Shown here one piece after another: positions 40,150 through 59,506 of a stretch of 64,000 bases of DNA (the stretch's first letter is position 1; every line of letters starts with the position of its first letter). Origin of the DNA: Phenylobacterium deserti (GTDB lineage Bacteria > Pseudomonadota > Alphaproteobacteria > Caulobacterales > Caulobacteraceae). The stretch lies in contig CAMCXF010000006.1 of assembly GCA_945883235.1 (NCBI GenBank), positions 1 to 64,000 on the forward strand. The letters run 5' to 3'. A program made the position numbers and the translations under genes. Under the pieces are notes generated by a model. The model was given only the letters and a program-made list of their open reading frames with translations, did no database searches and was not told the origin of the DNA.

Positions 40150-42156
40150 ATGCGCCCGTCCATGATCGCCACAGCCTTCGGGCTGGCCTTGACAATCGTC
40201 GTGGGCGCTGCGCCGGCAGCCTTCGCTGCCAAGGCGGCAACCCCGGCGGTCGCGACGCCCGCCCAGGTCGACAATTTCCGGCTGGTGACAGCGACTGGCC
40301 ACTCGCAGGATCTCTACCGCTATCAGGACTCCAAGGCGGTGGTGCTGGTGATGCATGCGGTCGGCAGCCCGGAAATCCGCAAGCTGGCACCGGCGTTGAG
40401 TGCACTGCAGGCCGCCTACACGCCCAGGGGCGTTCAGGTGATGCTGCTGAATTCCACAGCCAAGGATACCCGCGCAGCCGCATTGACCGAGGCGAAGGCG
40501 CTGGGCCTCAACCTGCCGATCCTGATGGATGACAACCAGCTGGCGGGCGACCAGATGGGCGCCACCCGCGTCTCGGAAGTGTTCGTGATCAATCCGCGCT
40601 CCTGGGCGGTAGTCTATCGCGGCCCGCTGAACGATGGCGCCAAGATGGCCTACGCAGCGAACGCGCTCGACGCCCTGATCGCCGGCAAGCCGGTGGCCAT
40701 GAGCCAGGTCGCCGCCAAGGGTGCCATGATCAGCTTCACGGACCGCAGCGCCGCCGCCCAGGCGGCGTTCCAGAAGATTTCCTACGCCCGCGACATCGTG
40801 CCGATCATCGAGCAGAAGTGCATCGCCTGTCACCAGGAGGGCGGCATCGCGCCCTTCGCCATGGACGGCTATGCCAAGGTCAAGGGCTTTGCGCCCATGA
40901 TCCGCGAGGCCGTGCGCACCGACCGCATGCCGCCGTGGGACGTCGACGCCAAGGTCGGTCACTTCAAGGACGACAAGAGCCTGTCGCCGGCCCAGATCAA
41001 GACCCTGGTCCGCTGGATCGAGGCCGGAGCCCAACGCGGCGAGGGTCCCGACAAGCTGGCCGAGGTGCGTCACGTGGCCCCCGAGTGGCCGCTGGGCAAG
41101 CCGGACGTGGTGATCGACATCCCATCCTATACGATCCCGGCGAGCGGCATCGTCGACTATCAGTATCCCGTGATGGACAACCCGCTGACCGAGGGCCGTT
41201 GGCTAAAAGCGTCGACCGCGCGCGTCGGCCAACGCCAGGCCGTGCATCATATCCTGTCCGGCTACATCCCCCCCGGTGCCAACAAGCAGGGCGGCATGGG
41301 TAACTGGGGCGGCAGCGTCGGCGGCTACACCGTGGGCATGGAGAGTATCGTCCAGCCCACCGACATCGGCACCTACATCCCGGCCGGCGGCTCCATTGGC
41401 TACCAGATGCACTACACGCCGTTCGGCAAGGAAGTGCTCTCGACCCAGCAGATCGGCCTCTACTTCTACAAGGACGGCGAGATGCCCAAGTTGATGATGC
41501 GTGAAAACACCATCGCCAACCTGTTCATCAAGATCCCGCCGAACGCCGAGGCGCACCGCGAGGTCAGTTACCTCGACTTCCCGCACGAGGCGCTGCTCTA
41601 TTCGGCAGTGGTCCACGCCCACTACCGCGGCACCTATTCCGACCTGTCGATCCGCTATCCGGACGGCACTGAAAAGCAGCTGATCAATGTGCCGCGCTAC
41701 GACTTCAACTGGCAGCGGATGTATGAGTTCGCCGAGCCCATCAAGGTGCCCGCCGGCTCCAAGCTGATCGCCACCTACGTCTACGATAACTCAAAGCGCA
41801 ACCCGGCCAATCCGGACCCGAGCAAGGAAATCACCTGGGGCGACCAGTCGTTCGAGGAGATGTTCTTCACCCAGCTGCGCTATCGCTGGGTCGATGAGAC
41901 CGCCGCCAAACAGACAGCCTATGACGACGATATGATGAAAACCCGTCTGATCGGCATGATGGATGCCAACATCGACAGCAAGCTGCAGATCGACGAGCTC
42001 AAGGGCGACTTGGGCAACGCGATCCGCCCGCGGTTTGCACTGGCCGACGCCAACAAGGATGGCGGCATCGACGCGAAGGAATTCGAACCCATCATGAAAA
42101 TGATGCGGGGCGGCCCGCGTCAGCGCCCGGCACCCGAAAAGGTCGCCGCGAAGTAG
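40150..42156 (+). CDS. Multidomain exported protein: thioredoxin-like, cytochrome c-type heme site, copper type II monooxygenase, EF-hands
   Basis: The 668-residue protein has a signal peptide (about 1-27). A thioredoxin/AhpC-like domain follows (about 38-180; VLVMHAVGSPEIRKLAPALS, DNQLAGDQMGATRVSEVFVI) in which the redox cysteines are absent. Next is a single c-type heme motif CIACH (224-228) with a downstream MPPWD. A copper type II, ascorbate-dependent (PHM/DBH-like) monooxygenase domain covers about 310-590: HHILSGY (366), HYTPFG (421), VHAHYRG (489), then GDQSFEEMFF. The C-terminus has two EF-hand loops, DANIDSKLQIDE and DANKDGGIDAKE. It would work in the periplasm. No partner gene is nearby. 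Confidence 0.85.
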   Translation: MRPSMIATAFGLALTIVVGAAPAAFAAKAATPAVATPAQVDNFRLVTATGHSQDLYRYQDSKAVVLVMHAVGSPEIRKLAPALSALQAAYTPRGVQVMLLNSTAKDTRAAALTEAKALGLNLPILMDDNQLAGDQMGATRVSEVFVINPRSWAVVYRGPLNDGAKMAYAANALDALIAGKPVAMSQVAAKGAMISFTDRSAAAQAAFQKISYARDIVPIIEQKCIACHQEGGIAPFAMDGYAKVKGFAPMIREAVRTDRMPPWDVDAKVGHFKDDKSLSPAQIKTLVRWIEAGAQRGEGPDKLAEVRHVAPEWPLGKPDVVIDIPSYTIPASGIVDYQYPVMDNPLTEGRWLKASTARVGQRQAVHHILSGYIPPGANKQGGMGNWGGSVGGYTVGMESIVQPTDIGTYIPAGGSIGYQMHYTPFGKEVLSTQQIGLYFYKDGEMPKLMMRENTIANLFIKIPPNAEAHREVSYLDFPHEALLYSAVVHAHYRGTYSDLSIRYPDGTEKQLINVPRYDFNWQRMYEFAEPIKVPAGSKLIATYVYDNSKRNPANPDPSKEITWGDQSFEEMFFTQLRYRWVDETAAKQTAYDDDMMKTRLIGMMDANIDSKLQIDELKGDLGNAIRPRFALADANKDGGIDAKEFEPIMKMMRGGPRQRPAPEKVAAK

Positions 42157-42262: not shown

Positions 42263-42640
42263 TCAGCCCATGCGGTGCAGCGCGCACAGCTTGTTGCCGT
42301 CGGGGTCGCGCAGGTAGGCGAGATACATCTTGCCCATGCCGCCTTCACGCACGCCGGGGGGATCTTCACAGGTGGTCCCGCCATTGGCGATGCCGGCGGC
42401 ATGCCAGGCGTCAGCCTGATCACCCGACGTACAGGCAAAGCCGATGGTGGCACCGTTGCCATGGGTAGCGGGTGCCCCATCGATAGGCTGGGACACCGAG
42501 AAGATTCCGGTGGGCGTGATGTAGAATATGCGGTGGCCGTCGACCATCGCTGGACCGGCACCCAGCGTGCCGAGCACCGCATCATAGAATTTCCTGGAGC
42601 GGTCGAGGTCGTTACCGCCGACCATGATATGCGAGAACAT
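42263..42640 (-). CDS. VOC family (glyoxalase/bleomycin-resistance-like) protein
   Basis: The 125-residue single-module VOC protein starts MFSHIMVGGNDLDRSRKFYD and ends YLRDPDGNKLCALHRMG. It has the metal-binding His and terminal Glu/Asp/Asn positions of the fold. It lies convergent to the copper fusion gene and divergent to the Baeyer-Villiger monooxygenase gene. VOC proteins include lyases, dioxygenases and binding proteins, so the reaction is not assigned. The ATG at 42640 has an AAGGA site ahead. Confidence 0.88.
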   Translation of the reverse strand: MFSHIMVGGNDLDRSRKFYDAVLGTLGAGPAMVDGHRIFYITPTGIFSVSQPIDGAPATHGNGATIGFACTSGDQADAWHAAGIANGGTTCEDPPGVREGGMGKMYLAYLRDPDGNKLCALHRMG

Positions 42641-42781
42641 CGTTGCGTTCCTTGTCTGATGAAGGCGCGCACATGAGCCAAGAATCGTGACGGCTACAAT
42701 CCCGCAACACGCCATGCAGCAGAATAAATTGCGCTGTTGCGTTCCGGCGGCCTAACCTCTCTGAAAAGAGGGAAACGCACC

Positions 42782-44611
42782 ATGAGCCTGCCACCCGAAC
42801 TGGTCGAACTGGCCGGCGGCGCTGTCGACACCGAGACCCTGCACACCCGCTATCTGTCGGAACGCGACAAGCGCCTGCGCGACGACGGTAACGCCCAGTA
42901 CACCGAGGTAACCGCCGAGTTCTCGCGCTATATCGAGGACCCCTATGTCGAGCCGGGCTTCACACGCGCGCCAGTGACCGACGAGGTGGAGTTTACCATC
43001 ATCGGTGGCGGGTTCGGCGGCCTGATGATGGGTGCGCGCCTGCGCGAGGCGGGGTTCGAGGACATCCGCCTGGTGGAAGCCGCCGGCGACGTCGGCGGGA
43101 CCTGGTACTGGAACCGCTATCCGGGCGCCATGTGCGACGTAGAGAGCTATTGCTACCTGCCGCTGCTGGAAGAGCTCGGCTACATGCCGAAGCACAAATA
43201 CTCTTTTGCGCCGGAAATTCTGGAGCACAGCCGCAACATCGCCCGCCACTACCGGCTCTATGACAAGGCGTTGCTGCAGACCTCGATCACCGGGATGGAA
43301 TGGGATGAGGCCACCCAGCGCTGGATCATCAGCACCAACCGCGGCGATCGGTTCGCGACCCGCTATGTCGCTATGGCCAACGGCCCGCTCAGCCGCCCCA
43401 AGCTGCCCGGCATTCCAGGGATCAACGCATTCAAGGGCCACACGTTTCATACCAGCCGCTGGGACTATGCTTACACCGGAGGGGATTCCTCGGGCGGTCT
43501 GACAGGACTGAAGGACAAGCGGGTCGGCATCATCGGCACCGGCGCCACCGGCGTGCAGTGCATCCCGCACCTGGGCGAAGGAGCCAAGGAACTATTCGTT
43601 TTCCAACGGACGCCCTCGTCCGTCGATGTGCGCAACAACGGGCCGACCGACCCGGCCTGGGCGGCGTCTCTTGAGCCTGGCTGGCAGGCCCGGCGGATGG
43701 AGAACTTCAACATCCTGGTCAGCGGCGGCGACACCGACGAGGACCTGGTTCACGACGGCTGGACCGATATTTTCCGCCGTGTGACCGGCAACGCGGCCAA
43801 GGAGGCCTCGCGCCGCATGGGCCGACGGCTGACGCGGGAAGAGCGTGCCGAGCTGATGGCGCTGGCCGACTACAACAAGATGAACCAGGTCCGCGACCGG
43901 GTGGACGCCATCGTGCAGGATCCCGTGACGGCGGCCGCGCTGAAACCCTGGTATCGCCAGTTCTGCAAACGCCCATGCTTCCACGACGAATACCTGCCGA
44001 CCTACAATCGCTCGAACGTCACCCTGGTGGACACCCACGGCCATGGCGTCGAGCGGCTGACCGAGCGTGGTGTGGTGGTGGATGGCAAAGAATACGAACT
44101 GGACTGTCTGATCTTCGCCACCGGCTTTGAGGTAGGCACGTCCTACACCCGGCGCGCCGGTTACGACATCGTCGGGCGCGGCGGCAAAACCCTGTCGGAA
44201 CACTGGGGCGAGGGCCTGCGCACCCTGCACGGCCTGACCACCCACGGCTTCCCCAACTGCTTCTTCCTGGGCTTCACCCAGACGGCGATCACCATCAGCG
44301 TGCCGCAGGCCTTGAACGAACAGGCTAACCACGTCGCCTATATTGTCAGTCAGGTGCGGGATCGTGGGGCCGCTGTCCTCGAGCCCACAGCCGAAGCCGA
44401 GGACGCTTACGTTCAGGAAGTCCGCAGCCTCGCCCGCATGGGTCGCCGCTTCTACGAGGAGTGCACGCCGGGCTACTACAACAGCGAAGGTGCCAAGGAT
44501 AACCGCGCCGGCTTCTTTTCCGACATGTACGGGGCGGGGCCGCTGAAGTTCTTCCAGGTGCTGGAGGGCTGGCGTGCGACGGGCGAGATGGCGGGGTTGG
44601 CGGTGAGGTAG
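42782..44611 (+). CDS. Flavin-containing Baeyer-Villiger monooxygenase
   Basis: This 609-residue FAD/NADPH enzyme inserts oxygen next to a ketone, giving an ester or lactone. It has an FAD site TIIGGGFGGLMMGARLREAGF (about 75), the BVMO fingerprint FKGHTFHTSRWDYAY (F-x-G-x-x-x-H-x-x-x-W), an NADPH-binding Rossmann motif IIGTGATGVQC, and GGTWYWNRYPGAMCDVESYCYLP. All key elements are intact. The long N-terminal extension (about 1-70) is like phenylacetone/cyclohexanone or steroid monooxygenase relatives. It is next to the thioesterase, esterase and P450 genes, suggesting an oxidative catabolic role. The substrate (cyclic or long-chain ketone) is inferred only. Confidence 0.93.
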   Translation: MSLPPELVELAGGAVDTETLHTRYLSERDKRLRDDGNAQYTEVTAEFSRYIEDPYVEPGFTRAPVTDEVEFTIIGGGFGGLMMGARLREAGFEDIRLVEAAGDVGGTWYWNRYPGAMCDVESYCYLPLLEELGYMPKHKYSFAPEILEHSRNIARHYRLYDKALLQTSITGMEWDEATQRWIISTNRGDRFATRYVAMANGPLSRPKLPGIPGINAFKGHTFHTSRWDYAYTGGDSSGGLTGLKDKRVGIIGTGATGVQCIPHLGEGAKELFVFQRTPSSVDVRNNGPTDPAWAASLEPGWQARRMENFNILVSGGDTDEDLVHDGWTDIFRRVTGNAAKEASRRMGRRLTREERAELMALADYNKMNQVRDRVDAIVQDPVTAAALKPWYRQFCKRPCFHDEYLPTYNRSNVTLVDTHGHGVERLTERGVVVDGKEYELDCLIFATGFEVGTSYTRRAGYDIVGRGGKTLSEHWGEGLRTLHGLTTHGFPNCFFLGFTQTAITISVPQALNEQANHVAYIVSQVRDRGAAVLEPTAEAEDAYVQEVRSLARMGRRFYEECTPGYYNSEGAKDNRAGFFSDMYGAGPLKFFQVLEGWRATGEMAGLAVR

Positions 44612-44615
44612 GGCC

Positions 44616-45032
44616 CTACTCCATCGCTCGCCGCGTCGTGGCCTGGACGGCGTCGGTGGGGATCAGGCGGATGGTGGAGCTGGCCTTGGCAATCACGTCG
44701 CCGGCGGCGTTCAGCAGACGGCCCTCGGCGAAGCAGGTGGAGCGGCCCGCGCGCTCGATCCAGCCTTCGGCGATGACCAGGCCCGGCCGCGCCGGGGCGA
44801 AGAAGCTGACCTTCATCTCCAGCGTCATGGGCGTCATACCGGGTGACTGCGACATCGCCGCGCCGGCCATGGCGGCATCGATCCAGCCGCTGACGAACCC
44901 GCCCTGGGCGACGCCGCCCGAGTGGCACATGTGTGGCGCGCAGAGGTATTCGATCACGGCGCGGCCGCCTTCGCGGCTTACCGTGCGGACCTGGCCAAGG
45001 GCGGATTGCAGGGTTGGGGCTTCGGTATCCAT
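44616..45032 (-). CDS. PaaI-family hot-dog thioesterase
   Basis: The 138-residue hot-dog fold protein has the PaaI segment CHSGGVAQGGFVSGWIDAAM, in which the conserved GG/Asp line the CoA pocket. LEMKVSFFAPARPGLVIAEG is the second strand-helix. It probably hydrolyses acyl-CoA thioesters in the cytosol. It is convergent with the BVMO gene, with four bases between stops. The ATG at 45032 is used; a TTG one codon earlier is possible. Confidence 0.88.
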   Translation of the reverse strand: MDTEAPTLQSALGQVRTVSREGGRAVIEYLCAPHMCHSGGVAQGGFVSGWIDAAMAGAAMSQSPGMTPMTLEMKVSFFAPARPGLVIAEGWIERAGRSTCFAEGRLLNAAGDVIAKASSTIRLIPTDAVQATTRRAME

Positions 45033-45124
45033 CAACTGAAGGTTCCTCTTGGGTCAGGGCGATCCGTGTGTAGGGTAGCCAACGCGCCATGTCTTCGGGC
45101 AAGGTCGAAAGCAAGGGAGATACC

Positions 45125-45391
45125 ATGCTGACTAAGGTTTTGATCCTCGTGGCGGCCCTGGGCGCGCCGATAGTTGGCGAGCCCGCGCAACAGACAGCGC
45201 CGTCAGCAAGCGCCGCAGCCTCGACAGAACAGGCCAAGCCCGCGGAACCCAAGAAGGTCTGCGTCACCGAGGCCCAACTCGGGTCGCACTTCAAGAAGCG
45301 GATATGCGCGACGCCGGAGGAATGGGAACGTCGCCGCGAGCGCGACGCTGCCGAAATGTCCAAGATGAGCGATCGGGCAGCAACTCAATAA
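45125..45391 (+). CDS. Small secreted Ala/Lys-rich protein, unknown function
   Basis: The 88-residue protein starts MLTKVLILVAALGAPIVG with a signal-like hydrophobic N-terminus. An Ala/Pro/Gln/Thr-rich linker follows, then a two-cysteine tail KKVCVTEAQLGSHFKKRICATPEEWERRRER. The two Cys are probably disulfide-bonded. Such C-terminal VCRTE...RICxTPEEW tails recur in secreted small proteins of sphingomonads and Caulobacterales. No function is known. The ATG at 45125 is used; a 12-codon upstream extension is unlikely. Confidence 0.7.
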   Translation: MLTKVLILVAALGAPIVGEPAQQTAPSASAAASTEQAKPAEPKKVCVTEAQLGSHFKKRICATPEEWERRRERDAAEMSKMSDRAATQ

Positions 45392-45438
45392 CCCCTGTTT
45401 GGCCCGCGAGCGGCCAGCAAATATGAGGAAACCTGAAC

Positions 45439-45864
45439 ATGCATGAAATCAAGGTAGGCGACGATGCGGCCCTGAGCGCCGAGGCCGTCTGGGCGGTGAT
45501 CGGCGACTTTTCCGGCATCCGCAAATGGGCAGGAGCGCTGGAGGCCGAGAGCACCGAGGTGACGCCCAAGGGCAAGGTTCGCACCCTGACCATGCCGGGC
45601 GGACGTACCATTCAGGAACTGATGACTGACGAGGGGCCGTGGCACTACACCTACACGCTGGATCGGCCCGACATGAACGCCTATTTCTCGACGGTGTCGG
45701 TGGTGCCGGGCGACGCCAATTCGTCGCGGATCGAGTACATCGTGAAGTTCGATCCGAAGGACGCGTCCACACTGGAGGCCACCACGGAACAACTCACCAA
45801 GTTCTGCCGGGGCAACATCAAGGCGATGAAGCGCGCCCTGGGGCTCGAGCCGCCCCGGGCCTGA
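45439..45864 (+). CDS. SRPBCC (START/Bet v 1-like) family protein
   Basis: The 141-residue protein has the polyketide-cyclase/dehydrase-like SRPBCC fold: AEAVWAVIGDFSGIRKWAGALE at the start, then TYTLDRPDMNAYFSTVSVVPG and IEYIVKFDPK. The family binds hydrophobic ligands in a deep cavity and includes cyclases and lipid carriers. It is followed 14 bp later by a RidA gene in the same direction, so the pair may be cotranscribed. Confidence 0.87.
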   Translation: MHEIKVGDDAALSAEAVWAVIGDFSGIRKWAGALEAESTEVTPKGKVRTLTMPGGRTIQELMTDEGPWHYTYTLDRPDMNAYFSTVSVVPGDANSSRIEYIVKFDPKDASTLEATTEQLTKFCRGNIKAMKRALGLEPPRA

Positions 45865-45878
45865 AAGGATCACTGACG

Positions 45879-46295
45879 ATGAGCGATGCAGGCATCAACT
45901 ATCAGGCCGTCCTGCCTGAGGGCTGGACGCGACCCCGCGGGTTTGCGCATGCGGTGAGTTCGCAGGGCAGCACGACGATCCGGGTGTCGGGGCAGCTGGC
46001 GCGGGTGGGCAATGCGCCCGTCGCCGTCGGCCTGACCCTGGGTGAGCAATGGCGGTTGGCGCTGGAGAACCTGATCACCGTGGTGCGGGCGGCAGGCGGC
46101 GATATCGGCAACATCGTGCTGCTGCGCGCCTATGTCACCGACATGACCGAGTTCAATGCCGGAGGGGCAATGGTAGGCGAGGCTTGGGCAGCCACGTTGG
46201 GACGCCACTATCCGGCCATGACCCTCGTCGGTGTCACGGGCCTTGTGGATCCCAACGCCCGGGTAGAAATCGAGGCGGAGGCGGTGCTGGCCTAG
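45879..46295 (+). CDS. RidA family protein (YjgF/UK114)
   Basis: The 138-residue protein has a RidA fold (SSQGSTTIRVSGQLA near the start; AGGDIGNIVLLRAYVTDM; HYPAMTLVGVTGLVDPNARVEIEAEAVLA). RidA proteins deaminate reactive enamine/imine intermediates. This one has the conserved C-terminal strand with the Arg that binds the carboxylate. The larger open frame is not coding before 45879. Its stop codon TAG overlaps the stop of the P450 gene on the other strand (CTAG). Confidence 0.9.
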   Translation: MSDAGINYQAVLPEGWTRPRGFAHAVSSQGSTTIRVSGQLARVGNAPVAVGLTLGEQWRLALENLITVVRAAGGDIGNIVLLRAYVTDMTEFNAGGAMVGEAWAATLGRHYPAMTLVGVTGLVDPNARVEIEAEAVLA

Positions 46296-47563
46296 TTCCG
46301 GTGCGGGATGATCACCGGCAGGGTCTCGTAGCCCTTGACGAACGCTGAGTGGGTGCGCTGGGGTTCGCGGACGACGCGGACCTCGGGGAAGCGGGCGAGG
46401 ATTTCTTCCCAGATGATCTGCAGCTGCAGCTCTGCCAGGCGGTTGCCGACGCAGCGGTGGATGCCGAAGCCGAAGGACAGGTGCTGGCGCGGGCGCTCGC
46501 GCTCGATGTTGTAGCGCTCGGGGTCGGTGATGACGCTGTCATCGCGGTTGCCCGAGACGTACCACATGACGACCTTGTCGCCCTGTTTGATGGTCTTGCC
46601 GCCCATCTCGAAGTCCTGGGTGGCGGTGCGCGACATGTGGGCCAGCGGGGTTTGCCAGCGAATAGTCTCGGAGACCATCGCAGTGATCAGCGACGGATCG
46701 GCGCGCAGCTTGTCGTACTGGTCAGGGTTCTTGTTCAGGGCATAAATCGAGCCGGAGATGGTGTTCCGCGTCGTGTCGTTGCCGCCTATTATCAGCAGCA
46801 CGACGTTGCTGTGATAGTCCCTCATACTGAGGTTCCGGGTGGCCTCGGCGTGGGCCATCATCGAGACAAGATCGAACTTCGGCGGCGCATTGACCCGCTC
46901 GTTCCAGAGCTCGGTAAACCGACCAAAGCACTCATCGGCCTGCTCGCGCTTGTGCTCCCAGCTTTTGGCCGGGCCGTGGCCGGGCATGTTGGTGAACATG
47001 TCGGACCAGTGGGTCAGCAGCCGCCGGTCTTCCTGCGGGAAGTCGAACAGCGTGGCCAGCGTCATGGCCGTCAGCTCTTTGGACACCAGGTCGACCCAAT
47101 CGAACTCTACGCCGATCGGCAGCCCGTCCAGGATTGCCCCGGCCCGCTCGCGGATCAGGGGTGCCATGGCCGCCAGGTTGGCGGGTGCGACGACCGGGCT
47201 GACGGCTTTGCGCTGCACGTCGTGCTCCGGGGGGTCCATACCGATAAAGCTGGAGCCGCGCGGCCGCTTTTCCGACTCGGCCTTGGCCTCCAGCGTCTGC
47301 AGCGCGATACCGTCCGCGGACGAGAACACCTGGTGATTGGTGTCGACCGCGATGATGTCGTTGTAGCGGGTTATCGACCAGTAGGGGCCGTACTCGCTAT
47401 CGGGCGTGTAGTGGACCGGGGCCTCAGCCCGCAGGCGCTCGAAATAGGGCCACATGGCGTTGGCGGCGAACAGTTCGGCCTGGGCCGGGTGAAGGGTCTC
47501 GAGCGGCAGGGCGTAGACGTCAGCCTGTGAGCCGGATTTGATTTCGGTGTTGCCGTCGGACAT
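46292..47563 (-). CDS. Cytochrome P450, CYP153-like
   Basis: The 423-residue P450 has the I-helix oxygen-binding motif IIGGNDTTRN, the ExxR motif MVSETIRWQTPLAHMSRTA, KVVMWYVSGNRDDSV, and the heme loop FGFGIHRCVGNRLAE (Cys about 371). This wording is very close to CYP153 alkane/fatty acid terminal hydroxylases, which use ferredoxin and ferredoxin reductase partners. No partner is in the window. The ATG at 47563 with GGAG ahead fixes the start; a much longer open frame upstream is not coding. The second P450 at 55.2 kb is a close relative. Confidence 0.92.
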   Translation of the reverse strand: MSDGNTEIKSGSQADVYALPLETLHPAQAELFAANAMWPYFERLRAEAPVHYTPDSEYGPYWSITRYNDIIAVDTNHQVFSSADGIALQTLEAKAESEKRPRGSSFIGMDPPEHDVQRKAVSPVVAPANLAAMAPLIRERAGAILDGLPIGVEFDWVDLVSKELTAMTLATLFDFPQEDRRLLTHWSDMFTNMPGHGPAKSWEHKREQADECFGRFTELWNERVNAPPKFDLVSMMAHAEATRNLSMRDYHSNVVLLIIGGNDTTRNTISGSIYALNKNPDQYDKLRADPSLITAMVSETIRWQTPLAHMSRTATQDFEMGGKTIKQGDKVVMWYVSGNRDDSVITDPERYNIERERPRQHLSFGFGIHRCVGNRLAELQLQIIWEEILARFPEVRVVREPQRTHSAFVKGYETLPVIIPHRN

Positions 47564-47723
47564 GGTCGTTCTCCCGTACGACGCATCTTTAGGCGCCGTT
47601 TTGGTGATCACGACGCAGGTAGCGCCGCAGCGCAAGTAAAATTCGAATAGCCGGGATGTCGCCGTCGTGTTCCGATCCTGCGGAACGCTGTGTCGGCGTC
47701 GCTGTTTCCGGGGGTTTGAGCTG

Positions 47724-48263
47724 ATGATGGACCGCCGGCATGCCCTGACGATGATGCTCGGTTTCGCGGTCACTCCGGGCCTCGCCCGCGCGGCGTCAGA
47801 GCCCCTGAAGATCGCGTTTGTCGACACCGGCAACACCGGCCGCAGCCTCATGGCCGAGATGCTGTCCCGCGACATGATTCGGCGGCGAAACCTGAATCTG
47901 GCGGTGATCTCGCGGGGTCTGGACGTCGATCCCTTTGACGAGGCGCCAGAGGCCAATGCTGCGATCCTGATGTCGGAGCGGGGCATCGATGTGGCCGCTC
48001 ATCGCGCCCGCGCCCTGGCGGCAGCGGACGTGGCGCACGCGGACCTGCTGCTGACCATGACGTCGAAACACCTTCAGAACGTGGTCGCGGCCCATCCGCA
48101 GGCGGCGGCCAGGACGTTCACCCTTGCGCAGTACGCGTCAAATGCCGCTGCCGACATTCCCGACGCCTGGGGCAAGCCGATGGCCGACTACCGGGTGGTG
48201 CTGAAACAACTGGACCTCTATCTGCCCCTGGCGCTGGCCAGGGCGACTGCCAGTGCACGTTAG
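47724..48263 (+). CDS. Low-molecular-weight phosphatase-like protein lacking the catalytic cysteine
   Basis: The 179-residue protein has an N-terminal signal-like segment with RR (MMDRRHALTMMLGFAVTPGLARA) and an LMW phosphotyrosine phosphatase-like domain. The P-loop normally reads FVCTGNTCRS; here it is AFVDTGNTGRSLMAEM, with Asp (D34) for the nucleophile and Gly (G39) for the second Cys. The later DP acid motif reads PDAW (146-149). The enzyme should therefore be inactive as a phosphatase, although it keeps the phosphate-binding Arg. It is expected in the periplasm or exported by Tat. No arsenate-resistance genes are nearby. Confidence 0.82.
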   Translation: MMDRRHALTMMLGFAVTPGLARAASEPLKIAFVDTGNTGRSLMAEMLSRDMIRRRNLNLAVISRGLDVDPFDEAPEANAAILMSERGIDVAAHRARALAAADVAHADLLLTMTSKHLQNVVAAHPQAAARTFTLAQYASNAAADIPDAWGKPMADYRVVLKQLDLYLPLALARATASAR

Positions 48264-48309
48264 AGCGTGACAGCTTCAAATGGATGCCGGTTGAAGCGCC
48301 CGTCAGCCG

Positions 48310-49086
48310 CTAAAGGCCCGCCAGCACGCCGCCATCTACATAGAGCGTCTGGCCATTGACGAAGTCGGAGGCACCGGACGCCAGGAATACCGCGGCGCCG
48401 ACCAGGTCTTCCACCCGCCCCCAGCGTCCCGCCGGGGTGCGGCCGCGGATCCAGGCGTCGAACGCCGGATCGGCCACGAGCGCGGCGGTCAGTTCGGTTG
48501 CGAAATAGCCTGGCCCGATGGCGTTGACCTGCAGGCCATGGACTGCCCACTCGACGCACATGGCCCGCGTCAGCATCTTCACGCCGCCCTTCGCCGCCGC
48601 GTAGGGCGCGGTGCCTGGCCGGGCGACCTCACTCATCAGGGACGCGATGCTGATGATCTTGCCGCGGCCCCGCGGAATCATGGCCCGGGCGACTTCGCGG
48701 CTGACGGCGAACACTGCGTCCAGATTGGTCGACATCACCGCGCGCCAGTCGGCCGGATCAAGGTCCAGCAGCGGCCCGCGCCGCTGGATGCCAGCGTTGT
48801 TGACCAGGATATCGATCGGCCCGAACCCGGCCTCACACGTCGCCACAGCGCGGACCACCTGTTCCGTGTCGGTGACGTCGAAAGGACAGTCGTGCGCCAG
48901 GATGCCTTCGTCGCGAAGGCTCGCAGCGACGGCACTGGTCTGCTCGCGGTCACGGGCGCTGATGATCACTCTCGCACCAGCCGCGCCGAGACCTCGCGCC
49001 AGGGCCTTGCCGATACCCCGGGTGGAGCCGGTGATCAGCGCGGTACGACCTGAAAGGTCAAACAGGGCGGCGCTCACCTCGGCCAC
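48310..49086 (-). CDS. Short-chain dehydrogenase/reductase (SDR)
   Basis: The 258-residue classical SDR has TALITGSTRGIGKALA (TGxxxGxG), NNAG in LVNNAGIQ, a catalytic Ser in IISIASLMSEV, and YAAAKGG for the YxxxK pair. NQINA-like LQVNAIGPGYFATEL follows. The closing sequence QTLYVDGGVLAG is typical of glucose 1-dehydrogenase/gluconate 5-dehydrogenase-like enzymes, but no substrate is assigned. It is the third gene of a unit with two phytanoyl-CoA-dioxygenase-like genes (overlap of start and stop). A GTG at 49077, overlapping the upstream stop as GTGA, is an alternative start. Confidence 0.9.
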   Translation of the reverse strand: MAEVSAALFDLSGRTALITGSTRGIGKALARGLGAAGARVIISARDREQTSAVAASLRDEGILAHDCPFDVTDTEQVVRAVATCEAGFGPIDILVNNAGIQRRGPLLDLDPADWRAVMSTNLDAVFAVSREVARAMIPRGRGKIISIASLMSEVARPGTAPYAAAKGGVKMLTRAMCVEWAVHGLQVNAIGPGYFATELTAALVADPAFDAWIRGRTPAGRWGRVEDLVGAAVFLASGASDFVNGQTLYVDGGVLAGL

Positions 49087-49910
49087 AGACGCGGGTTCAG
49101 CGGACCCTCGGCCCGCTCGCCGGGCGATGTCTCCGCCAGCCAGAGCTTGTGATCGTAAAACCGGGCGCCGCTGACGTCGGCGCTGACGCGGGCACCATCC
49201 GCGTACCAGATGATGGTCATCACCGAGCGCAGCAATGGCGTGGGATTTGGTGGCGCGCGATGCAGGGTCCAGCCCCGATGGAAGGTGGCGTCTCCCGCCT
49301 TCAGCGCACCGTGAGTCGACGTGGGCAGCCCCATGTCGGTGACCACTTCGTTGAACCGCGCTTCTGATTCATCACCGATGATGTAGCGGCCCAGGTCGCC
49401 GTGGGTCTGGCTGCCGTTGGCGAAGGTCATGGTGCCCACATCGGCCGGCACGTCGACCAGTGGCATCCACATGGTAATGGTGTCGTTGGTGTCCAGCGGC
49501 CAGTAGGTCTGGTCCTGATGCCATGGGGTGTGACCGCCGCCGGGCTCCTTGAACAGCGCCTGGTCGTGATAGAGCCGCACGCCGGAAACCTGCATCAGGT
49601 CTGCTGCGGCCTTGGCGAAGCGGGCGGAAAACACGAAACGCCTGGCGGCCTCGTCACGGGTCCAGAGATTATGCGCCTGCAGGAACGCCTTGCCGTAGGT
49701 GTCACGGTCCGCGATCGGCGGCGCGCGGCTGGTCATCCTCGCCACCAGCGCTTCGAGAGTCGGGCGAAACGCAGCGATCTCATCGCCGCTCGCCAGACCC
49801 CGCACCACGGCGTGTCCGTTGGACTGGAATCCCGAAATGGTCCGGGCGTCGATCTCGACCGTGCTGTCGATGCCGCTGGGCTCGGGCAGGTCGGCGGAAA
49901 GCCGGGTCAT
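49074..49910 (-). CDS. Phytanoyl-CoA dioxygenase (PhyH) family protein
   Basis: This 278-residue Fe(II)/2-oxoglutarate-dependent oxygenase has the H-x-D pair in TPWHQDQTYWP and the distal His in FHRGWTLHRAPPNPT. LYHDQALFKEPGG and WMPLVDVPADVGTMTF are conserved parts of the PhyH fold. The substrate cannot be stated; family members hydroxylate branched acyl-CoA, amino acids, ectoine and secondary metabolites. Its ATG overlaps the stop of the second PhyH gene as ATGA, and it continues into the SDR gene. Confidence 0.9.
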   Translation of the reverse strand: MTRLSADLPEPSGIDSTVEIDARTISGFQSNGHAVVRGLASGDEIAAFRPTLEALVARMTSRAPPIADRDTYGKAFLQAHNLWTRDEAARRFVFSARFAKAAADLMQVSGVRLYHDQALFKEPGGGHTPWHQDQTYWPLDTNDTITMWMPLVDVPADVGTMTFANGSQTHGDLGRYIIGDESEARFNEVVTDMGLPTSTHGALKAGDATFHRGWTLHRAPPNPTPLLRSVMTIIWYADGARVSADVSGARFYDHKLWLAETSPGERAEGPLNPRLWPR

Positions 49911-50734
49911 TGTACGATCGGGATCGCGCCGGAGACCGGACGGGTGGCACCGGCCTGTTCCGGCAGGCGCATGGCCAGGCTGCCCGGCACCTTGTGAACC
50001 CGCGCGACGGCGTCGGCGATGTCGAAGAAGGCGTCTTCGCTGAACAGCTGGGGCCGCGCCTCAATGTGCAGCTTGCGGTCCAGCGCCGCCAGCGTTTCGC
50101 GCCAGCCCTCGCGACCATAGGATGGCCACTGAATGCCGTCCTGCATGAAGGCGATGTCGATGAAGTAGCGCTTGCGCTCGCCGCCGCCGGGCTGAGGCCG
50201 GCGGGCGTGGACCAGGGCCGAGTGGGCGAAAATTACGGTGCCGGGCGGAATATCATTGACCACCACCGTGCCCGGAATCTCCTGATCACCCAGGAACGAC
50301 ATGGCGTCGCGGCGCATGACCGAGCGGTGACTGCGGGGCAGCAGCAGCAGGTCGCCGACCGTGCCGTTCAAACCGTCCAGATAGTGCAGCACATGCAACT
50401 GGGTGTGACTTCGGTTGGTCTGGGGAATCTGTTCGTAGTCGTGATGCCAGGCGATGCCGGCCAGCCCGGGGTCGTGCCGGGCGGCGTGGCAGTGGTGGAA
50501 GGTGAACGCGGCGCCACCCATGATATCGTCGGTGATCGCCAGTGTCTCGGGATCGACGATCAGATCGCAGAGCCGGTCATACTTCCAGATATTGCTGCCG
50601 TCGAAGCGGGGCTCGACCTGCACGTAGCGGTCGATCTCTTCGGCCACCGCCGCGGCGCGGCGGGCGTTCAGCATCCCTGGCTTGATCAGATAACCCTGCT
50701 TGCGGAACTGTTCTTTCTCAGCGTCCGACAGCAT
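49907..50734 (-). CDS. Phytanoyl-CoA dioxygenase (PhyH) family protein
   Basis: The 275-residue protein starts MLSDAEKEQFRKQGYLIKPGML, the usual PhyH N-terminus. It carries the iron ligands in GIAWHHDYEQIPQTNR and FAHSALVHARRP. LLLLPRSHRSVMRRDAMSF marks the second half. It differs clearly from the next PhyH protein, so this is not a recent duplication. The ATG at 50734 is used; the open frame upstream overlaps the divergent hydrolase promoter. First gene of the PhyH-PhyH-SDR unit, divergent from the HSL-type esterase. Confidence 0.9.
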   Translation of the reverse strand: MLSDAEKEQFRKQGYLIKPGMLNARRAAAVAEEIDRYVQVEPRFDGSNIWKYDRLCDLIVDPETLAITDDIMGGAAFTFHHCHAARHDPGLAGIAWHHDYEQIPQTNRSHTQLHVLHYLDGLNGTVGDLLLLPRSHRSVMRRDAMSFLGDQEIPGTVVVNDIPPGTVIFAHSALVHARRPQPGGGERKRYFIDIAFMQDGIQWPSYGREGWRETLAALDRKLHIEARPQLFSEDAFFDIADAVARVHKVPGSLAMRLPEQAGATRPVSGAIPIVQ

Positions 50735-50903
50735 CGCCGCGTTTCCCCCTGCATTCCCTCTGTTCAACTCTAGCGGCCTCACCTGTCCTGTCAGGCGAAA
50801 TCGACACGGCGAAACCGGCGCAGACGATTCCAGCTGGCGTCCGACAGGCCCTTCGGTCCACGATGGATCAAATCCGCCAGGACGGAGCAGGAGGAACACC
50901 ATC

Positions 50904-51920
50904 ATGGACGACGCCGGCCAGATTCAGATGAACCGCGAGATCCCCGCCAAGAGCCTGAAGACCCCCACCACCGTCAGCCCGGAGCTGCAGCGCTCGATCT
51001 CGGGCATGGCGGCCGCGGCGGCCGCGGGCGGTGGTCTGCCGGTGGGCTGGGCGCCCCAGAACGCTGCCGAGTGGAAAGCCGTCATCGCCCAGATGGACGC
51101 CCAGGCCCTCAGCGTCGCGCCGGCCATCAAGGCGATGTTTCCGCACACCTCCGAGTTACGTCAGATCGCCGGCGTGACGGTGCGCGAGATCACGCCCTCT
51201 ACCCTGGATCCGGCCAAGGCCGGTAAGCTGCTGGTGCACTTCCACGGTGGCGGATACGTGCTGAATGGCGGCGAGGCCAGCACCGGCGAGGCTGTGCTGG
51301 GTGCGCACTATTCCGGGATGAAGGTGATTTCGGTGGACTACCGGATGCCGCCGGAACACCCTTTCCCCGCAGCTGTGGATGATGCGGTAGCGGTTTGGCG
51401 TGTGCTCAGGGCCGACAGGCCGGCGGCGGCGATGGGAGCGTTCGGCACCTCGGCCGGTGGTGGGCTGACCCTCGCCCTGGCGCTGAAGCTGAAAGAACTG
51501 GGCGAGACGCTGCCTGGCGCCCTGGCGCTCGGCACGCCCTGGGCTGACCTCACCGGGGCCAGCGACAGCTATCAGGTAAACGCCCACGTCGATGGCATCT
51601 TCTCGAATTTCGATGGTTTCGGAAAAGGTATGGCGGAGCTCTACGCCGGCGCAGCAGGCGTGACCCACCCACTGGTGTCGCCGGTGTTCGGCGAGTTCTC
51701 GGGCTTCCCGCCGACAGTGTTTGTCACGGGCACCCGCGACATCCTGCTCAGCGACACTGTGCGGGTCTACCGCGCCATGCGGACGGCGGGGGTCACGGCG
51801 CGGCTGGAGGTGCACGAAGCCATGAGCCACGCCGAATACATCTATGCCTTCGACGCCCCGGAATCGGCGGTGGCGTTCCAGGACATCGCCCAGTTCTTCG
51901 ATGAGCATCTGAAGGGTTGA
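50904..51920 (+). CDS. HSL-family alpha/beta hydrolase (esterase)
   Basis: The 338-residue hormone-sensitive-lipase type esterase has HGGG (about 114-117), the nucleophile GTSAGG (Ser about 183), VISVDYRMPPEHPFPAAVDD and TPWADLTG. TRDILLSD and the C-terminal HAEYIYAFD supply the Asp and His. It has a strong Shine-Dalgarno (AGGAGG) ahead of the ATG at 50904 and no signal peptide, so it is cytosolic. It opens a four-gene run with an exported esterase, a small protein and a PhyH gene. Confidence 0.92.
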   Translation: MDDAGQIQMNREIPAKSLKTPTTVSPELQRSISGMAAAAAAGGGLPVGWAPQNAAEWKAVIAQMDAQALSVAPAIKAMFPHTSELRQIAGVTVREITPSTLDPAKAGKLLVHFHGGGYVLNGGEASTGEAVLGAHYSGMKVISVDYRMPPEHPFPAAVDDAVAVWRVLRADRPAAAMGAFGTSAGGGLTLALALKLKELGETLPGALALGTPWADLTGASDSYQVNAHVDGIFSNFDGFGKGMAELYAGAAGVTHPLVSPVFGEFSGFPPTVFVTGTRDILLSDTVRVYRAMRTAGVTARLEVHEAMSHAEYIYAFDAPESAVAFQDIAQFFDEHLKG

Positions 51921-51924
51921 GATC

Positions 51925-52851
51925 ATGATCCGGGCGACAGGCGTTTGGCTGGCCGCACTGGCGCTTGCCTCGGCACCGCCGGCTTTGGCCCAGGCTTCGG
52001 CCACCGCGCCGGTCCCGGCGACGGTCGGCACGGCGCAGCAGATCGATTTTACCTCGACGATCAACGGCAAGACCTACCGGATCACGATCGCCAAACCCTA
52101 CGCTTTCCCGCCGAAGGGTGGCTATCCGGTCGTCTATGTGCTGGACGGCGGCGCATACTTCGGCACCTTCGCTGGCGCGGCCCGGCTTCGCAGCGCGCTG
52201 GGGGCGGAACTGGCACCGGCCGTCATCGTGGGCATTTCCTATCCGTCGGAGAGCATGCTGGTGGCGCAGGACCGGCGGATGTTGGACCTCACCCACAACT
52301 CGCCAGACGCCTCTCGGCCAGCCCTCGGCGTTGCGAACAAGCCCGTCGAGACCGGCGGTGCCAACGCCTTCTACAAGGTGATCGCGACAGAGATCCGTCC
52401 GCGCGTCGCAGCGGTGGCGCCGGTAGCACAAGGTCAGGACGTGCTGTTTGGCCACTCTCTGGGAGGGCTTTTCGTGCTGCACACGATGTTCGAGCACCCG
52501 GAGGCGTTCCGCACCTATCTGGCGCTGAGCCCGTCAATCTGGTGGACGGGGCGATCCGTGCTGAAGGATGAGGCCGCCTTCGCGGCGAAAGTGAAGGCCG
52601 GCCAGACATCACCCCGCATCTTCATTGGCGTGGGCGGCGAGGAACAACCACCAGCCGTAGCATCATCGGCAGAGTACCGCATGGTCGACAACGCCTCGGA
52701 ACTCGCCACACGCCTGACCGCCCTCAAGGGTGCCGCTGGCTACAAGGTCGAGAGCAAGGTGTTCGACGGTCAGTCCCACATGAGCGTGCCCTGGGAAGCC
52801 TTGAACACCATGCTGAATTTCGCCCTGGGCAAAGGCAGCCAGCTGCCGTGA
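51925..52851 (+). CDS. Exported alpha/beta hydrolase (enterochelin-esterase-like)
   Basis: The 308-residue protein has a signal peptide (MIRATGVWLAALALASAPPALAQA) and an esterase of the IroE/Fes/esterase D-like family. Features are PVVYVLDGGAYFGTF, AVIVGISYPSES, the nucleophile VLFGHSLGGLFVLHT (Ser), ALSPSIWWTGR, and a C-terminal His in DGQSHMSVPWE. It should act in the periplasm on an ester or siderophore-like compound. It starts four bases after the HSL gene and is coupled by a GTGA overlap to the next small gene. Confidence 0.88.
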   Translation: MIRATGVWLAALALASAPPALAQASATAPVPATVGTAQQIDFTSTINGKTYRITIAKPYAFPPKGGYPVVYVLDGGAYFGTFAGAARLRSALGAELAPAVIVGISYPSESMLVAQDRRMLDLTHNSPDASRPALGVANKPVETGGANAFYKVIATEIRPRVAAVAPVAQGQDVLFGHSLGGLFVLHTMFEHPEAFRTYLALSPSIWWTGRSVLKDEAAFAAKVKAGQTSPRIFIGVGGEEQPPAVASSAEYRMVDNASELATRLTALKGAAGYKVESKVFDGQSHMSVPWEALNTMLNFALGKGSQLP

Positions 52852-53123
52852 CCCGTCAAAAAATCCTGGTCCTCTATCTGGCCAACAGCGCGCTCGATGC
52901 GCCGACCATCGCCTGGGCCGTCTATGACGGGACCGGTAAGACCCTGCACATGGCCGGCGACAGCGAGGAAGTCCCGTACCCGACGGGTCTGGCGGCTCTG
53001 AAGGACGGCTGGCGGCTGTTCCAGGCATCGCAACTCAACCCCCATGCGAGGGGCGAGGAGTTCGACATCGCCTATCTGAAATACGAGTTCTGGTTCGAAC
53101 AACTGGTTGAGGTGACCCCATGA
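52848..53123 (+). CDS. Small cytosolic protein of unknown function, coupled between esterase and PhyH genes
   Basis: The 91-residue protein starts TRQKILVLYLANSALDAPTIAW, followed by SEEVPYPTGLAALKDGWRLFQ and ending DIAYLKYEFWFEQLVEVTP. I do not recognise a family. The N-terminal ILVLYLANS is hydrophobic, but there is no clear signal or membrane helix. It is acidic and rich in aromatic residues at the C-terminus. Its GTG start overlaps the esterase stop (GTGA), and its stop overlaps the PhyH start (ATGA), so it must be translated with both. Confidence 0.78.
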   Translation: MTRQKILVLYLANSALDAPTIAWAVYDGTGKTLHMAGDSEEVPYPTGLAALKDGWRLFQASQLNPHARGEEFDIAYLKYEFWFEQLVEVTP

Positions 53124-54052
53124 GCCAGGCCCCTCCCCTGCTCAGCTCCCCTCAGATGGCGCGCTTCGTGGCCCGCGGTTTCCTGCGGTTCGACGCCGTG
53201 GTGCCGGACGAGATCAATGCGCAGTTCATGGCCGAGGCCGGCGAGGTCGCTGAGCCGAAACCGGGCGAGCGCCTGATGAAAACCTATGGCCAGACGCTGG
53301 CCGCCAATGCCATCCCCGAAGTCTCGGCCGGCACGCCGCTCAGCCAGACCTATCCGCCGGGTAGTGCCATTGCCCGCCTGCTTGACCTGCCGCTGGTGCG
53401 TGGCGCGCTGCAGAGTCTGCTGGGCGATGACCCGGTTTTTGATCACCACTTCCTGCACATCACCTTCCCGCCCGCCTATCACGCAGCGTCCGGCGGCGAG
53501 AGCGTCAGCCAGCACACCCATCAGGACTCAACCATTGACCCGCGTCAGGCGTTCGACGTGCAGGTGATGTACTATCCGCACAAGGTGACCCGGCCCATGG
53601 GCGGCACCCGGTTCATCCCCGGCACCCACCTGCGCAAGGTCAGCGAGGTGGCGCTTGGGCGCTATCAGAACATTCGCGGCCAGCAGCACATGGTCTGCGA
53701 GGCCGGCACGCTGCTCTTCCTGCATCACGGCATCTGGCACGGCGGCGGGGTGAACCTGTCAGACCGAACTCGCTACATGTTCAAGATCCGCATGCGCGCC
53801 TCGGGTTCGCAGGTGCGGCGCTGGGACGTGGAGCCGATTGAACCCAGGGCGCCGCAACGGCCAATTTTCTACGTCAAGACACCTTCCGATCCCGAGAGCG
53901 TGGCGGCGATCCTGATGACGCCGGAACCCTGGTTCGAACAGGACACCGGTCGGCTGGAGTTCGTGAACCGCGTCAAGCTGTGGCGCTATCTGAGCGGCGA
54001 TCCAGCGTTCGACGCCGACTACTGGATGACGCGGCTGGGGGGCGGGGCTTAA
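53120..54052 (+). CDS. Phytanoyl-CoA dioxygenase (PhyH) family protein
   Basis: The 310-residue Fe/2OG oxygenase has iron ligands in SQHTHQDSTIDPR (H-x-D) and LHHGIWHGGGVNLSDRTRYMFKIR (distal His with the 2-oxoglutarate-binding Arg). GGTRFIPGTHLRK is a conserved core strand. It is longer at the C-terminus than the other two PhyH proteins in the window. Last of the esterase-esterase-small protein-PhyH operon, followed by a terminator-like hairpin. Confidence 0.9.
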   Translation: MSQAPPLLSSPQMARFVARGFLRFDAVVPDEINAQFMAEAGEVAEPKPGERLMKTYGQTLAANAIPEVSAGTPLSQTYPPGSAIARLLDLPLVRGALQSLLGDDPVFDHHFLHITFPPAYHAASGGESVSQHTHQDSTIDPRQAFDVQVMYYPHKVTRPMGGTRFIPGTHLRKVSEVALGRYQNIRGQQHMVCEAGTLLFLHHGIWHGGGVNLSDRTRYMFKIRMRASGSQVRRWDVEPIEPRAPQRPIFYVKTPSDPESVAAILMTPEPWFEQDTGRLEFVNRVKLWRYLSGDPAFDADYWMTRLGGGA

Positions 54053-54206
54053 GGCGTGGACCTGAGCGCTACTCGCCTTTCAGGGAAAGATTCCTCCCGG
54101 GTTTCGAGAGGTATCGGCATGACACTGGAGAGTGGATGCTGAAGGCTGCAGTGTAGCTTAGGAAGGCGTTATGTTCGCCCTCGCATGATCCTCAACCCGA
54201 TCTCAG

Positions 54207-54240
54207 CAACGGCTCCGGTGGAAACGCCGGAGCCGTTTGC
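54207..54240. terminator. Bidirectional terminator between PhyH and carbonic anhydrase genes
   Basis: The arms GCAACGGCTCCGG and CCGGAGCCGTTTGC form a stable stem around TGGAAAC, directly ahead of the convergent carbonic anhydrase stop. The trailing T-run is short, so strength is uncertain. Confidence 0.6.
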
Positions 54241-54248
54241 TACCTGTC

Positions 54249-55076: not shown

Positions 55077-55213
55077 TGGTCTAGGCCCCGACGTTTGACG
55101 GTGACTGGCGAGTGTAGGCTCCAAGGTTTAAGAGAGCGTGTTGAGTGATCTTCGCTTTTCAAACGTCGGTTATCGGCGTTCAGTGAAGCGCAAAGACCCG
55201 AGGAGATACGACG

Positions 55214-59403: not shown

Positions 59404-59506
59404 TGTGAATATGAGCGCGTTGGCGCGCTCCGTCTAATGCCAACGGCGTTGCAGGTTGTCGTCTGATCGAGCCCGGGCCATGGTGTGGAGTGGGAGGCCT
59501 CAAAAA

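Follow-up and report, generated by a model that had tools for sequence, protein, structure and literature searches.

The first 64,000 nucleotides of contig CAMCXF010000006.1 of Phenylobacterium deserti (assembly GCA_945883235.1), a stretch referred to here as the window, encode at positions 40150-42156 of the forward strand one exported chain made up of a redoxin fold, a monoheme cytochrome c domain, a copper core of the PHM/DBH type and two EF-hand loops. PHM and DBH are animal copper oxygenases that use ascorbate. Comparison with relatives of the window protein points to an exported oxygenase in which the c-type heme would act as the built-in electron donor of the two-copper site, replacing ascorbate, and we regard this as the probable function of the protein.

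The coding sequence (40150..42156, + strand) is a single open reading frame (ORF) of 668 amino acids with an ATG start and no internal stop. Its coding score from GC content at third codon positions (GC3), 0.34, ranks second among the ORFs called in the window. A signal peptide and four modules in one chain, as the original prediction had proposed, were recovered from the ORF itself, Pfam, a predicted structure model, Foldseek and structure alignment. The Sec-type signal peptide (residues 1-27, 40150..40230) was recognised by eye from a basic start, a hydrophobic run and an AxA motif, its end being approximate. The predicted model of the whole protein reached a mean predicted local distance difference test (pLDDT) of 85.6 and a predicted template modelling score (pTM) of 0.84, with residues 1-33 at pLDDT < 50. 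The protein contains exactly two cysteines, both inside the CIACH heme motif; in 20,000 shuffles of its residues CxxCH arose 0 times and two EF loops arose at a rate of 5e-5. The reading frame, the modules, the redoxin and copper folds, the conservation of candidate ligands, the distribution and the history described below were all obtained by computation.

The reading is carried by ten candidate metal residues, C224, C227, H228, M260, H366, H367, H421, H489, H491 and M571, whose positions are invariant in 104/104 core-complete proteins spanning Planctomycetota and Proteobacteria. Removing 9 incomplete ORFs from the 117 with a core match left 108 core-complete ones, of which 4 duplicated others, giving 104 distinct proteins; the window protein took the place of L001, a copy of its gene, in the alignment. 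Members were picked by core-profile match and not by metal residues, and the set leans to better-scoring relatives; the planctomycete rows are the better-scoring core matches and lean to closer relatives. Amongst the 23 loci left out as supposed repeats, L049, L060 and L068 were found not to be repeats. All ten residues are present in 5/5 further intact proteins, namely L049, L060 and the gammaproteobacterial L151, L152 and L153. The frame-interrupted copy L068 consists of two ORFs that each show only their own part of the metal sites, and L050, outside the 104, keeps CxxCH, HH, QVHY and HAH, its Met ligand position lying beyond the aligned part. Electron transfer from heme to copper, as suggested in the original prediction, is favoured by this co-conservation of both sites; the transfer itself we continue to infer from sequence comparison. 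As a separate observation, interrupted frames occur at L136 1919-4003, L036 8926-11014 and L068 in two Phenylobacterium genomes (J367, J426), where decay or sequencing error is possible.

The copper core and the heme domain

The dicopper monooxygenase core of the PHM/DBH type covers residues 319-585 (41104..41904) and was identified by Foldseek, structure alignment and Cu2_monoox_C. The best Foldseek match was human DBH (4zel, E 9.6e-13), with PHM (3mll) at E 1.5e-11. In structure alignment, PHM entries reached Z 17.3-20.6 over residues 316-611, which form two consecutive copper jelly-roll domains, and the best of them was 5wja_D (Z 20.6, root mean square deviation 3.1, 262 residues, 14% identity). 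These comparisons of the predicted model place the copper domain in the PHM/DBH copper type II monooxygenase fold, with candidate ligands for both copper sites, CuH and CuM.

The candidate CuH ligands are His366-His367 (41245..41250), in the order of PHM H107 and H108, and His421 within a Q-x-H-Y motif (41410..41412), in the order of PHM H172. For CuM, the candidates are His489 and His491 of a HAH motif (41614..41622), in the order of PHM H242 and H244, and Met571 (41860..41862), in the order of PHM M314, which we take to be a CuM ligand; the whole assignment goes by order, motif and shared fold and not by residue-level structure alignment. Each of these residues is kept in 104/104. Thus candidate ligands are not lacking, and the monooxygenase domain with its histidine pairs described in the original prediction is upheld, with two methionines added that it had overlooked: Met571, the sixth candidate copper ligand, and Met260, the likely distal heme ligand. 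Glu570 directly precedes the Met571 position in 104/104, and in the Q-x-H-Y motif, common to PHM, Y422 occurs in 104/104 and Q419, at the place of PHM Q170, in 95/104. One report on PHM lists H107, H108 and H172 as CuH ligands and H242 and H244 as bound to copper in a mutant (PMC6123673).

With PHM (PDB 1phm, 3mll, 5wja) the window protein shares a two-domain copper core and the ligand order HH - QxHY - HxH - M. Unlike PHM, it is bacterial, carries a heme c domain in cis and has neither the disulfide cysteines nor the peptide-binding residues. In DBH (PDB 4zel), as in the window protein, an extra N-terminal domain precedes the copper core. That of DBH, a DOMON domain, is described as having a cytochrome-domain fold without the typical heme axial ligands (PMC4846438), so that animals offer a remote structural parallel to an electron-transfer domain placed ahead of the copper core. 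The domain before the core in the window protein is, by contrast, an unrelated c-type cytochrome that retains its heme motif.

The monoheme cytochrome c domain (residues 200-318, 40747..41103) was recognised from its own model (pLDDT 88) and from VIA-align. The lone heme site claimed in the original prediction stands: it is the CIACH attachment motif at residues 224-228 (40819..40833), with both cysteines and the histidine kept in 104/104. Met260 (40927..40929), the likely distal ligand, is Met in 104/104, and helices flank the CxxCH and Met260 region in the predicted models. VIA-align of the domain gave two heme c proteins, PccH (4rlr, Z 6.2) and hydrazine synthase alpha (5c2v, Z 5.0), as the sole 2/97 chains with Z >= 2, values below 8 being weak by the tool's own note; the NCBIfam hydrazine synthase alpha model also matched weakly (12.5 bits). 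Both proteins have the CxxCH after the first helix, a later Met and a C-terminal helix. The likeness is weak, and unlike in those proteins the window heme domain is fused to a copper monooxygenase. Two CcmH genes are present in the host genome, so that c-type heme maturation should be available to the protein.

The redoxin domain, the calcium loops and competing explanations

Residues 38-199 (40261..40746) form a redoxin or thioredoxin-like domain, for which AhpC-TSA (33 bits, Pfam cut-off 26) and Redoxin (27.9, cut-off 26.6) were both over cut-off, and 2ywo (Z 22.8) and 3u5r_E (Z 22.5) aligned in structure. Residues 30-201 share the fold of SMc02350-type redoxins (PDB 3u5r, 2ywi, 2cvb; Z 22-23). 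These are separate proteins that, by reading of alignments, have Cys at the family's two redoxin places (CP and GC.IKW), unlike the window protein, where both are lost. Ser73 (40366..40368) occupies the first place, which is Cys in 49/104, and Ala192 (40723..40725) the second, which is Cys in 47/104 and always with Cys at 73. This agrees with the cysteine-less redoxin reported in the original prediction, which held nothing on the size of the family or on the paired loss of the cysteines. Across the 104 proteins, both cysteines were found in 47, the first only in 2, the second only in 0 and neither in 48, with a gap at the first place in 7. On the tree the first cysteine changes six times, and the second follows in 6.0 of six independent pairs on average (sign test, median p 0.031, range 0.031-0.063). 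Because the two are present together and, but for two proteins, lost together, the alignment and tree indicate that the domain ancestrally bore a linked cysteine pair and that the window copy is a derived state, in one of several lineages that appear to have lost both cysteines while retaining the heme and copper residues. The linked presence and loss of cysteines 73 and 192 across the family is, as judged from these sequences, new here.

By a profile test, 98/104 proteins have a redoxin fold next to the heme-copper core. It was not found in frame in 6/104, namely L078, L080, L082, L100, L104 and the frame-interrupted L136. In L080 (542-1465 and 1372-2799, - strand) and L104 (2033-3226 and 1867-3840, + strand), redoxin and heme-copper parts lie in separate ORFs with the redoxin just downstream, which is a split form of the fusion; L080, L104 and L078 group together in the tree. 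The six proteins with no in-frame redoxin, together with cysteine loss where metal residues are kept, suggest that the redoxin is ancillary to a core formed by the heme and copper domains.

Simple Nei-Gojobori ratios of nonsynonymous to synonymous substitution rates (dN/dS) in six ortholog pairs of the window gene ranged over 0.04-0.17 for the copper domain, 0.08-0.37 for the cytochrome, 0.20-0.33 for the cysteine-less redoxin and 0.08-0.22 for the EF tail. These ranges place all modules under constraint, the redoxin included. The copper domain was lowest in 5/6 pairs, the EF tail being lower with L018, and amino-acid identity of the cytochrome was above that of the redoxin in 6/6.

The redoxin could be a maturation aid that keeps the protein's own CxxCH reduced for heme attachment, in the manner of ResA or CcmG, or helps copper loading, the remainder of the protein acting as an oxygenase with its own heme donor; we consider this unlikely. 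The position of the redoxin directly before the heme domain, the alignment of ResA structures at Z about 17 and its separate ORF just downstream of the heme-copper ORF in L080 and L104 would all agree with such a role. However, the closest folds are SMc02350/TTHA-type proteins and not ResA, the cysteine pair is not a CxxC, and in the window protein the redoxin cysteines are gone while CIACH is retained.

A second possibility, and a quite unlikely one in our estimation, is a peroxygenase or peroxidase in which the copper core would use H2O2, the heme would only prime Cu(II) to Cu(I) and the peroxiredoxin-like redoxin would tune peroxide. The near-constant company of redoxin and core (98/104, with one of the six exceptions, L136, frame-interrupted) and the cysteine pair (CP motif plus GC) in 47/104 speak for it, yet 57/104 proteins, the window protein included, have no full pair and the heme and copper residues are nonetheless invariant.

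The remaining explanations concern the copper core itself. PHM holds the carboxylate of its substrate with Arg240, Asn316 and Tyr318, and its core contains conserved disulfides. By offset from the ligands, these three positions correspond to Val487, Phe573 and Gln575 in the window protein; across the family Arg occurs at the Arg240 position in 0/104 and Tyr at the third position in 39/104. Residues 318-585 contain 0 Cys, and the copper core is Cys-free in 82/104 proteins. A heme/copper protein of the periplasm that acts as a sensor, store or reductase, transferring electrons or copper with no oxygenase activity, would fit the lack of conservation on the PHM substrate side and the fact that no substrate is known; we nevertheless hold it to be very unlikely, as CuH and CuM candidate sets, soft Met included, are present in 104/104, as expected of a catalytic pair. 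An ordinary PHM hydroxylating glycine-extended peptides, with which the fold, ligand order and Q-x-H-Y motif are shared, is hardly credible: the substrate residues are not kept and the copper domain has no Cys for the disulfides, and the window protein is for these reasons not taken for a peptide-amidating PHM.

The two complete 12-residue calcium loops noted in the original prediction were confirmed by pattern as DANIDSKLQIDE (residues 605-616, 41962..41997) and DANKDGGIDAKE (residues 633-644, 42046..42081), the second with a Pfam EF-hand match below cut-off. One or two such loops occur in the host's own copies (5/5), the other Phenylobacterium-type rows (42/42), the Exilibacterium rows (2/2) and 17/18 Hyphomonadaceae-type rows, where the exception, L034, stops with its contig; they occur in 3/34 planctomycete and 0/3 other alphaproteobacterial rows. 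The loops, suggested earlier to gate activity, occur in the Phenylobacterium/Hyphomonadaceae/Exilibacterium branch but are missing from 31/34 planctomycete members, and are thus not part of the core mechanism.

Proposed mechanism, electron supply and gene neighbourhoods

The heme-driven oxygenase would work in the periplasm or at the outer surface. A periplasmic donor, either a respiratory cytochrome c or a pyrroloquinoline quinone (PQQ) dehydrogenase with a cytochrome domain, would reduce the His228/Met260 heme, which would then hand single electrons to CuH (His366, His367, His421), its neighbour in the chain. O2 and substrate would meet at CuM (His489, His491, Met571), where a C-H bond would be hydroxylated, such that a reaction of the PHM/DBH type would proceed with no ascorbate. 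In the window copy, the redoxin may be a binding or structural module that was ancestrally redox-active through its cysteine pair, and the EF-hands may add Ca-dependent stability or anchoring. The substrate would be a small organic molecule and not a glycine-extended peptide. Metal loading, the direction of electron flow, the O2 chemistry with hydroxylation, calcium binding and the substrate are what we infer from the computed features.

Donation from a heme domain to a copper monooxygenase has a counterpart in LPMO systems, in which cellobiose dehydrogenase or PQQ pyranose dehydrogenase feeds the LPMO through a heme domain (PMC6472588). Those systems differ in that the copper enzyme is another one and the heme is of the b type and supplied in trans.

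A PQQ dehydrogenase was found beside a sister paralog of the window gene, C7 (G000:C7). By the called ORF starts, 37 bases separate C7 from this downstream gene on the same strand (L091 6239-8149, - strand), whose 637-aa product, identified by ORF and domain match, combines a PQQ dehydrogenase propeller and a cytochrome c domain (33.2 bits against a cut-off of 27). Within the C7 clade of 8 tree rows, a PQQ dehydrogenase follows directly downstream on the same strand in 4/8, these being the host's own, L126 (72%), L128 (70%) and, weakly, L134 (27%); at L125, L127, L129 and L130, no PQQ dehydrogenase was found within roughly 2 kb. A wider reading, which we consider unlikely, is a self-fuelled periplasmic circuit: the heme-copper protein would hydroxylate a C-H bond, the PQQ quinohemoprotein encoded adjacent would oxidise the resulting alcohol, and the electrons released would travel back to copper by way of the cytochrome c heme, so that chemistry of the PHM type would need no ascorbate and no NADH. 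On this reading, oxygenases of the PHM type would form an ancient bacterial family driven by heme, one that is widespread in Planctomycetota and was transferred to the Phenylobacterium/Hyphomonadaceae line. The quinohemoprotein gene of this circuit adjoins the sister paralog and not the window gene.

Upstream of the window gene lie queC/E (named by reading) and a PTPS-family queD, and downstream a glyoxalase, an FMO-like monooxygenase, a thioesterase, P450s, PhyH proteins and SDRs. Comparison with seven orthologs of longer context (L017, L018, L020, L021, L022, L035 and L036) revealed no neighbour family in more than two regions, apart from weak chains of 27-37%; the likenesses to neighbours in the window were a glyoxalase in L021 (56%), a P450 in L020 (33%) and two FMO-type ORFs in L036 (23%). 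As no neighbour family recurred across orthologs, the neighbours were set aside as a clue to the substrate. Positions 42263-59403 hold an oxidative gene run that includes two P450s, two PhyH genes, SDRs, esterases, an amidohydrolase and a mandelate racemase-like gene, and look like a catabolic region. Beyond it, the products of 59456-60571 and 60802-61890 are both exported, resemble each other at their starts and match nothing in Pfam. Homologs of the 59456-60571 product lie close to heme-copper genes in L022 and L028, and L092 (15811-16671) encodes a comparable start.

An NHL/SMP30-type propeller is encoded within 0.7 kb downstream in seven Hyphomonadaceae-type loci (L026, L027, L031, L032, L033, L037 and L043). 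For example, L027 4843-6465 encodes such a beta-propeller with a lipoprotein-like start, as read in that locus. The arrangement recalls the animal PHM-PAL pairing, the relatedness being only a resemblance. We also weighed a PAM-like pairing with a lyase propeller, which is only noted here, since the window gene has no recognised propeller gene next to it.

Several observations weigh against the heme acting as donor to a PHM/DBH-type oxygenase. In the window protein alone, Cu2_monoox_C (19.4 bits, cut-off 23), Cytochrome_CBB3 (16.6 bits, cut-off 27) and EF-hand_1 (18.7 bits, cut-off 25.4) all scored under the Pfam thresholds, so that, of the modules expected from a Pfam search, AhpC-TSA passed and Cu2_monoox_C and EF-hand did not. 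A 37-member profile of the copper domain found no PHM match amongst PDB sequences, Foldseek with the cytochrome domain alone returned nothing significant, and the VIA-align Z values of that domain are only middling. The dN/dS of the cytochrome exceeds that of the redoxin in 2/6 ortholog pairs. No PQQ dehydrogenase was recognised next to the window gene, and at its seven longer-context orthologs neighbours recur in pairs of regions at most. Additionally, PMC12055684 cites a report that a Cyt c/GSDH protein of Teredinibacter was unable to donate electrons to LPMO. Heme and copper could also have been conserved together for some other shared task.

Against the sub-threshold Cu2_monoox_C score stand the fold matches and the family-wide Pfam matches: Cu2_monoox_C was matched by 32/37 family members and Cytochrome_CBB3 by 35/37 (E<=0.01), and the C7 paralog clears the Cu2_monoox_C cut-off with 27 bits. 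With no PHM found by the profile search of PDB sequences, membership of the PHM/DBH superfamily rests on fold, ligands and Pfam.

Distribution, history and meaning of the family

The host genome carries five full-length copies, the window gene included, at 100, 55, 54, 50 and 46% identity. Amongst 60 genomes, its own included, a match was found in 17, all within the 36 of the genus (one a fragment), and 24 genomes from other families of the order gave 0 matches. Wider surveys used the heme-copper core as query (E<=1e-20) and scored the first few candidates per genome (9 in Planctomycetota, 5 in Alphaproteobacteria and 7 in the class of Exilibacterium), and copy counts are therefore lower bounds. 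The core was found in 83/199 sampled genomes of Planctomycetota, where most of the matches listed span at least about 360 of the 380 positions of the profile, in 4/385 of Alphaproteobacteria, the host included, and in 4/274 of the class of Exilibacterium, its own genome included. Thus the protein is unusual, as had been supposed, amongst Alphaproteobacteria, but it is not so in Planctomycetota. In Hyphomonas sp. ih12, 8 places matched, of which two are neighbouring pieces.

A whole-protein profile, with the first 3 candidates per genome scored, matched 160 of 299 Pseudomonadota genomes at E<=0.001; amongst the matches listed, the rows of the host genome and G316 span the protein and the rest, except L050, are single modules covering the redoxin, heme or EF part. 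The Bacteroidota loci L045-L047 match in the heme stretch only, and no core match was found in their three genomes, an empty answer that shows little.

In the tree of the 104 rows (IQ-TREE, midpoint root), each of the five host copies has a position of its own, and that of the window groups with L017 (97% across the core). Phenylobacterium-type, Hyphomonadaceae-type (working group labels, assigned partly by kinship) and Exilibacterium rows form one branch (67 rows, 100/99) that neighbours four planctomycete rows, and the alphaproteobacterial L082-L084 fall among planctomycete rows in two places. This topology is consistent with a single passage into the Phenylobacterium/Hyphomonadaceae/Exilibacterium line and old duplications after it, with separate passages elsewhere; as the root was placed at the midpoint, the direction of passage is only suggested. 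Close-set copies were also observed in other genomes: L108 (85-5432, - strand), on a contig of the planctomycete G462, has three consecutive heme-copper genes, and G509 has three close-set copies on contig C46.

Searches of titles and the starts of abstracts, with bioRxiv and most subscription journals outside their coverage, yielded no description of such a bacterial heme-copper protein. Sequence databases presumably hold members under generic names, and what is new is thus the recognition of the variant and not the sequence. Altogether, these results describe a bacterial family that unites the copper core of animal PHM and DBH with a heme domain in one chain, that is frequent in sampled Planctomycetota and that is multi-copy in Phenylobacterium and Hyphomonas. 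If the heme feeds the copper site, the family would offer C-H hydroxylases that are amenable to genetics and bring their own electron donor, a way to test directly how CuH receives electrons, and a large, as yet unassigned capacity for oxidation among environmental bacteria.

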